From NCBI RefSeq assembly GCF_028368975.1, contig NZ_JAQNDM010000002.1:9232425-9296424 (forward strand): DNA of 64,000 bases, written 5' to 3'. The DNA is from Stigmatella ashevillena (GTDB lineage: Bacteria > Myxococcota > Myxococcia > Myxococcales > Myxococcaceae). The notes beneath the pieces are model-generated. The model made no database searches. It was given only the letters and a program-made list of their open reading frames with translations, and was not told the DNA's origin. A program made the translations under genes and the position numbers. Shown here one piece after another: positions 62,344-64,000 of the stretch (position 1 is the stretch's first letter; every line of letters starts with the position of its first letter).

Positions 62344-62706
62344 ATGAGTGCCTCCGAAAACTTCTCCCTCGCGCGTCAGTGGCTGAGCGCCTTCAACGCC
62401 CACGACGTGGACGCCCTGGTGGCCCTGTACGCCGAGGACGCGACACATACCTCTCCGAAAATCCGGGTTTTGCACCCGGAGACGGGGGGCAAGCTGGTGG
62501 GCAAGACAGCCCTGTCCCGGTGGTGGAAAGAGGCCAACGCTCGGTTGCCGGGGCTGCGCTACGAGGAGACGGCGCTCACGGCCAGCGAGGAGCGCGTCTT
62601 CATGGAGTACCTGCGCCATGCGCCCGGGGAGCCGCCCCTGCCGGTGGCCGAGGTGCTGGACGTTCGGGACGGGAAGATCGTCGCCTCGCGCGTCTACCAC
62701 GGTTGA
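62344..62706 (+). CDS. SnoaL/NTF2-like small protein
   Basis: 120 residues from the ATG at 62344. The pattern [29 protein letters not shown] opens NTF2-like folds of the SnoaL group, with [17 protein letters not shown] in the middle and [19 protein letters not shown] as the closing strands. These cone-shaped proteins bind or isomerise small hydrophobic substrates. Divergent from fusA and convergent with the ATP-grasp gene. Function unknown. Confidence 0.82.
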
Positions 62707-62740: not shown

Positions 62741-63844
62741 TTACTCCGGGGTGTAGCACCAGTCCTCCACGCCCAGGGTGTGCCCATGGCGGGCCCTCCA
62801 GGCCTGGTGCTCCTCCGAGGCGCGGTATCGCTGGAGGGAAATCTCGGGAGAGGGCTCGAGTGAGTAGTGGGGGCGGCCCTGCGCAAGCAGGGCGCACATC
62901 GCCTTCAACAGGGGCAAGGTGTCCACCAGCTCTTCGAGGAAGAGGAACTGGCCGCCTTGATTGACCTCCAGGAAGTGGATGCCTCCCTCGGGGTCCACCA
63001 CGAGGTCCACGCAGCCGAAGACCAGGCCCAGCCTGTTCATCATGTCTCGCAGTTGGTGCTGGAATGTCTCGGAGAGCGAGCAGGCGTCGGCCGCCAGCTC
63101 CGAGTGGTAGATGTGGGCCCGCCAGTCGACGAAGGCCTTGCCCTGGGTGGAGCGGAGGCGCACGGGAAACATCCGGTCGCCCACGAGGGTGACCCGGAGG
63201 TCACAGACCTTCTCCACATAGCGTTGGTAGATGCCAGGGCACATGGACACGGACGCGTCGTCGAAGGAGGACGCCGTGTCCAGCAGGGTGGCGTTCACGT
63301 TGTAGAACTGGTGGGTCTGACGGTCCCGCCACGTGTGCGGCATGAAGGTCTTGTAGATGACCCGGCCGTGCCGGGCGATGAACGCCCGGATGGCGCGCGC
63401 GTCGTTGGACATCAGGGTGTCGGGAACCTGGAGCCCCGCGCTGCGAGCCGCCCGGAGTTGGAGCAGCTTGTTCTCGGCCGCCAGGGCGGCACCGGGAGGG
63501 TTGACCCACAAGGCGCCGGTCAGCTCACCGGCCAGGGCAAAGAGGTTGCTCTGAAACAGCGACCACTCGCCCCGGACAAAGGGCAGGTCGCTCTCCAGAA
63601 CCTCCGCGGAGGGGGGAGGGGCTCTGGGCCGCCGGTACCAGACGGCCCCCACGTCCGGCGTCTGGGCCGAGCCCAGCTCCAGCCGGTCCTCCAGGGCGCT
63701 GTCATGGATCGAAAGGGTCCCCAGGGAGCCGCTGAAGAGGGAAGGGCTCCAGAGTGGCTCGATGCCGGACTGCTTCAGTCCCCAGCACACCGCGGCCGCG
63801 TTGAGATCCTCATGGGGCGATAGGATGACGGGAGCGCGGGGCAT
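62741..63844 (-). CDS. ATP-grasp peptide ligase, graspetide-maturase-like
   Basis: 367 residues. The N-terminal pre-ATP-grasp part ([50 protein letters not shown]) and the ATP-grasp core ([49 protein letters not shown], ending NQGGQFLF) match MvdC/MvdD-type RiPP ligases and related RimK-like enzymes. Those close macrolactones or macrolactams between acidic side chains and Ser/Thr/Lys of a precursor. The gene begins 17 bp downstream of the precursor-like gene at 63862. Confidence 0.85.
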
Positions 63845-63861: not shown

Positions 63862-63999
63862 TTAGTTCTGCAAGTCTCGATCACCCCAGCCGCCGGCATT
63901 GCTGATGCCCGAACTCCAGCCACCAGAAACCTTGGCGAGATCCTCGGGGGACAGTTCCTGAGCCGTGAGACGGGCAAGGGGACGGATTTCCCGCACGTT
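63862..63999 (-). CDS. Putative RiPP (graspetide-like) precursor peptide, 5' truncated by window edge
   Basis: The last 45 codons of a gene that continues beyond 64000. The visible leader reads IRPLARLTAQELSPEDLAKV then SGG, a helical recognition-type leader with a double-Gly end (residues 25-27 of the visible part). The following 18-residue C-terminal core, WSSGISNAGGWGDRDLQN, is rich in Gly/Ser/Asn with two Asp, then TAA. Its stop lies 17 bp before the ATP-grasp start on the same strand, so it is the likely substrate: Asp side chains could be joined to Ser hydroxyls. Its 5' end and any further biosynthetic genes are not in the window. Confidence 0.72.
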   Translation of the reverse strand, partial: NVREIRPLARLTAQELSPEDLAKVSGGWSSGISNAGGWGDRDLQN

Positions 64000-64000
64000 C

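Follow-up and report, generated by a model that had tools for sequence, protein, structure and literature searches.

Graspetides are a well-known class in which dozens of groups have been predicted (PMC13097080, PMC8939145), and their leaders carry a motif of the Phhx(1,2)h type (PMC8939145). The locus described here lies at the end of a stretch of 64,000 nucleotides, all of which is referred to as the window (G000:C2:9232425-9296424 of a 10.95-Mb genome). It consists of a short precursor gene and the gene of an ATP-grasp ligase. With the microviridins (MdnA/MdnB/MdnC), this system has in common the ligase fold, the predicted mechanism and the leader-directed modification of a core. However, microviridins combine a TxKxPSD core with a PFFARFL leader and two enzymes, MvdC and MvdD, whereas the window has PLAR, a single enzyme, no TxKxPSD and no acetyltransferase. 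Core, leader and enzyme number thus rule out membership of that family, and the complete core confirmed the view of a preliminary description of this DNA, according to which the absence of TxKxPSD sets the peptide apart from microviridins. Corallotide (group 15, Corallococcus; PMC13097080) is likewise a myxobacterial graspetide with a TIGR04187-type synthetase, but it has a long repeated precursor, Lys isopeptide bonds and genes for a 2OG oxygenase and a beta-lactamase, none of which occurs in the window cluster.

When 84,980 species genomes were scanned, the wider family of the window synthetase was found mostly in Lysobacterales. The Lysobacter loci with the THAT-containing core THATGPNGDDPGDP are, judging by name and species, presumably those of thatisin (Ramesh et al. 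2021). In these thatisin-type (group 16) loci of Lysobacter antibioticus and its relatives, the synthetases are 48-49% identical to that of the window over 355 aa, which scores 330-333 bits to two of them (L052 and L053), and they lie with it in one clade of 31 members with a support of 100/100. Compared with the published clustering threshold (alignment score 70), the 330 bits to the Lysobacter enzymes suggest that the window enzyme probably belongs with thatisin in the published group 16, for which a high co-occurrence of NHLM-type transporters was reported (PMC13097080). The acceptors are near the C terminus in both systems. However, the donor pair of thatisin-type cores consists of the Thr residues of T-H-A-T, whereas the window has the Ser residues of S-G-I-S in a core, WSSGISNAGGWGDRDLQN, that does not resemble THATGPNGDDPGDP. 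In addition, an ABC transporter with a C39 peptidase and an HlyD-like protein are encoded beside the precursor in six of the seven Lysobacterales loci, and no such pair adjoins the window cluster or that of its closest relative.

The clusters of Rhodanobacteraceae (Dyella, Luteibacter, Oleiagrimonas) and a myxobacterial offshoot (G007 and G034) belong to the same synthetase clade at 38-45% identity. They have an RPFAR or RAFAR leader motif and [ST]xx[ST] donors as in the window, but differ in their cores, such as FLTVYTDPDRPEPE, and have no GG site.

With a probability of roughly 80%, the window is taken to hold a minimal two-gene graspetide cluster, in which the leader would dock through RPLAR, Ser3 and Ser6 would form macrolactones with Asp13 and Asp15, and a C39 peptidase would cut after Ser-Gly-Gly in trans. 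The proposal of the preliminary description, a graspetide precursor, finds support in the enzyme family and its fold, in the leader motif and the GG site, and in the conservation of related two-gene clusters.

The precursor gene and its synthetase

Positions 63862-63999 on the minus strand of the window translate to NVREIRPLARLTAQELSPEDLAKVSGGWSSGISNAGGWGDRDLQN followed by a stop codon. This is the 3' part (63862..64000) of a gene that starts with an ATG 44 bases past the window edge (L003:3469), located by reading beyond position 64000 as had been advised. The complete ORF (G000:C2:9296286-9296468; L003:3287-3469) has 60 codons, which encode the leader MKRINHDSQPVELAKNVREIRPLARLTAQELSPEDLAKVSGG and the core WSSGISNAGGWGDRDLQN, and is preceded by a GAGGAAG ribosome-binding site at SD distance from the ATG. 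Between its stop codon and the ATG of the ATP-grasp ORF are 17 nt, in agreement with a gene placed directly upstream of the ligase. A long unrelated protein at the window edge, named beforehand as the outcome that would speak against a precursor, is ruled out by this stand-alone gene for 60 aa. The leader was also rightly said to end in Ser-Gly-Gly before a short core, but the stretch then read as the leader proved to be its second half only, the first half being outside the window.

The recognition motif RPLAR (residues 21-25, 63970..63984, minus strand) is the counterpart of PFFAR in microviridins and of the Phhx(1,2)h motif, here RPLARL, and all 30 clade precursors carry R[P/A/T][L/F/I][A/G][R/H]. 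It is followed by the predicted double-glycine cleavage site Ser-Gly-Gly (residues 40-42, 63919..63927, minus strand), for which SGG or AGG stands in the same place in the precursor of the closest relative (G040) and in seven Lysobacterales precursors. Lysobacter leaders read RPLARxxARELSxxEIxxISGG, and that of the window is nearly the same (RPLARLTAQELSPEDLAKVSGG). An HMM built from the seven Lysobacterales leaders, with the window and G040 excluded, was run against the 1,336 ORFs of the window and its flank; it matched the precursor ORF at E 7.1e-10, and the next, unrelated ORF at E 1.7. This indicates that the call of a precursor is not due to chance. A comparison of the precursor with NCBIfam and Pfam gave no significant match, only Bacteriocin_IIc (E 0.12), which is due to the GG leader. 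No further precursor of the same type was found in the genome. At the locus there was no match to a sigma-70 promoter, which has little meaning in a myxobacterium, and none in a scan for promoters and terminators. Divergent from the precursor gene, and on the other strand, is a small ORF for a secreted, Cys-rich, lipoprotein-like product without a family match (L003:3912-4268).

The ligase encoded beside the precursor (367 aa, 62741..63844, minus strand) is of the graspetide synthetase type. It matches the NCBIfam models TIGR04187 (subfamily GRASP_SAV_5884; E 5.8e-55, 186.7 bits against a curated cut-off of 350 bits), TIGR04185 (MvdC; E 2.6e-40) and that of MvdD (E 6.2e-35), all below the curated cut-offs. 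It is thus related to graspetide synthetases but cannot formally be assigned to any of these subfamilies. Its closest solved relatives are MdnC (PDB 5ig9, E 6.9e-26), MdnB, AMdnB, CdnC and PruB. In a fold comparison with an AlphaFold model (pLDDT 89.9, based on 28 relatives), the top 32 matches are all graspetide synthetases and rank ahead of RimK, and PsnB is also among the best matches by sequence or fold that outrank RimK. The catalytic residues K126, K165, R217, D240, R242, D280, E293 and N295 are invariant in these 28 sequences and W241 is nearly so, D240 to R242 being the DWR motif; most of these residues align with the same ones in MdnC and MdnB. Between the synthetase gene and fusA, a small SnoaL/NTF2-like ORF (62344-62706, plus strand) was assigned by eye.

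Relatives and fate of the locus

The closest enzyme of the myxobacterial family comes from the same genus (G040) and is 69% identical to that of the window; the precursor ahead of it has the leader MKTPDQELQKTQSAEDEAIARPLARLTAREISTEELARIAGG and the core WFISTYSNNGGPDVDWLK. The other two myxobacterial synthetases, of G034 and G007, are 45% identical, and those of Dyella, Luteibacter, Oleiagrimonas, Frateuria and Rhodanobacter about 39-44%. In a maximum-likelihood tree, the 31-member clade comprises Lysobacter, Rhodanobacteraceae and four myxobacteria. The window and G040 form a branch of their own (100/100) beside the Rhodanobacteraceae-type clade, and the thatisin-like enzymes of Lysobacter form the other main branch. 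The root of this tree serves for drawing only and carries no direction of transfer. Since G034 and G007 are placed elsewhere in the clade than the window and G040, myxobacteria seem to have acquired the family on two occasions. Among the matches listed, no plasmid-borne close relative exceeded about 34% identity. An RPxAR-type precursor was found in a small ORF upstream of 30 of the 31 synthetases, with widely varying cores (THATGPNGDDPGDP, FLTVYTDPDRPEPE, SVTSGSVSNDTPDPTD and others).

The cluster was found in only two of the seven genomes of the genus that were searched, was decayed in a third (G037), and could not be found in the majority of the family's other genomes, a distribution within the genus which suggests that it may be dispensable. 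The syntenic site in G037 (L042:9300-9870, G037:C1) has suffered several deletions. All that is left of the precursor there is its first 19 residues, the leader motif and the core being gone, and the enzyme survives only as several fragments. The flanking fusA region is 96% identical in G037, and conservation there extends from fusA into the region behind it. Because pieces remain at the syntenic site, the cluster most likely predates the split of these species and was then lost in one of them.

Core, predicted rings and maturation

The core WSSGISNAGGWGDRDLQN has 18 residues (63865..63918, minus strand), with Ser3 and Ser6 as predicted donors and Asp13 and Asp15 as predicted acceptors; Ser2 is a further candidate donor. 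The donor stretch Ser3-Gly-Ile-Ser6 corresponds to Ser4-Thr-Tyr-Ser7 in G040, and Asp13-x-Asp15 follows in both, so that Ser-x-x-Ser and Asp-x-Asp are kept in WFISTYSNNGGPDVDWLK amid a different surrounding sequence. Donor spacing was examined in 17 representative cores, picked by hand to cover the distinct ones. Ser/Thr-x-x-Ser/Thr (i,i+3) occurs in 16 of them against 7.1 expected by shuffling (P about 2e-6, a guide only, since the cores share ancestry and the P values are optimistic), and none of the other donor spacings of 1-7 is enriched. In 15 of the 17 (2.2 expected), an acceptor pair comes after the donor pair. Asp-x-Asp as an acceptor rule for the whole clade is unsupported (10 of 17 against 8.2 expected); an acceptor spacing of three residues, which is not that of the window, shows mild enrichment (13 cores, 8.0 expected, P 0.004). 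Two Rhodanobacteraceae precursors (L057:3669-3857 and L073:3671-3844) with the core ERIGTTTG...DEKP.D.MPW break the donor rule and may have a ring pattern differing from the rest of the clade.

With only two acceptors and no Lys, the window core can form two rings at most, both of them esters, and its best reading is two macrolactones with a loss of at most 36 Da. As the Ser-x-x-Ser spacing is common to the clade containing thatisin, the ring topology may be the known one of that clade. An undescribed topology in the branch of the window and G040, with two Ser-Asp macrolactones around a glycine-rich, Trp-containing loop and maturation in trans by a transporter-peptidase, is put forward only tentatively; it would fit the remark of the preliminary description that the ring pattern could be new. 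The core sequence itself is distinctive and appears unpublished, as no description of it was found in the papers returned by a literature search.

In the proposed pathway, the RPLAR helix of the leader would dock on the synthetase, which would use ATP to phosphorylate Asp13 and Asp15 at their side-chain carboxylates. Attack by Ser3 and Ser6 would then give two macrolactones and a bicyclic product with a mass change of -36.02 Da. The calculated [M+H]+ of the core is 1919.863 without modification, 1901.852 with one ring and 1883.842 with two. In the last step, cleavage after Ser-Gly-Gly and export of the 18-residue peptide would fall to a double-glycine (C39) peptidase-transporter from another part of the genome. 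By analogy, the secreted peptide most likely inhibits proteases or serves in predation or competition.

A graspetide with a single ring, or with Ser2 as donor in place of Ser3 or Ser6, is a possibility of some weight, though an unlikely one; its topology would differ from that of the thatisin-type pair. The core offers three Ser residues (2, 3 and 6), its donor-acceptor spacing is unlike that of the thatisin-type and Rhodanobacteraceae cores, and a group 2 graspetide with two residue pairs available formed one ring only (PMC9576775). However, G040 keeps Ser-x-x-Ser and Asp-x-Asp in a different sequence. It is very improbable that the enzyme, like RimK-type ligases, has some other molecule or protein as its substrate in place of the product of the short ORF: the fold is common to those ligases and the family scores are below the curated cut-offs, but graspetide synthetases outrank RimK in both sequence and fold, and a precursor with the same leader motif adjoins the enzyme in 30 loci.

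The absence of the cluster from most related genomes, the broken copy in G037, from which the leader motif, the core and parts of the enzyme are missing, and the lack of a dedicated transporter could also mean that the window cluster is decaying, with its genes intact but expression or export, and hence a working product, lost. This is rather improbable, as both genes are whole, all catalytic residues are kept and the ribosome-binding site and spacing are sound.

For the two-gene graspetide cluster, which is the preferred reading, the question of export leads to the surroundings. Extra precursors, a transporter, a protease and an acetyltransferase had been named as genes to look for, and none is adjacent to the cluster. 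No C39 ABC transporter was present within the stretches read around the window cluster (window, L003 and L048) or that of G040 (L039), nor could a gene for a protease or an acetyltransferase be recognised beside either of them in these stretches, where genes were called by eye and family libraries were applied to part. The GG site tracks the C39 transporter in the relatives: both are present in Lysobacter, and in Rhodanobacteraceae the site is absent and no C39 transporter was found within the flanks examined. The window (SGG) and G040 (AGG) keep the site without an adjacent transporter. ATP-grasp loci typically contain no C39 peptidase gene (Makarova et al., PMC8939145). C39 proteins are encoded elsewhere in the genome of the window, and three of them, in open frames of 730-750 aa (ABC transporters at G000:C2:992384, 995276 and 9631147), align to the Lysobacter transporter and could act on the precursor in trans. 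There is no support for a tailoring role of a methyltransferase (L003:4302-5000) in the operon, because an ORF on the opposite strand intervenes and no methyltransferase was seen beside the G040, G034 and G007 clusters.

The locus adds a compact one-enzyme myxobacterial system to a clade with enzymes and leaders that remain recognisable and cores that have changed almost wholly. This makes it useful for asking what the synthetase reads, such as the leader and the donor spacing, and what it ignores.

Two other graspetide-like systems were observed. The same genome has a separate two-enzyme cluster of the microviridin type (L005:911-3337; G000:C2:about 4152944-4155370), the precursor of which has the leader PFFARLLEAQELDQAAGG and two successive cores, TTKKFPSDSDE and TLKYPSDSDE. 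A third family in myxobacteria (L014:983-2625 and L032:1149-2601) has precursors with LAEELExVRGG and a core such as LPGLVQATGGRTKDEHGHPDLTGGSAGQTDGD; its synthetases (also in L012, L013 and L015) are 37-41% identical to that of the window.
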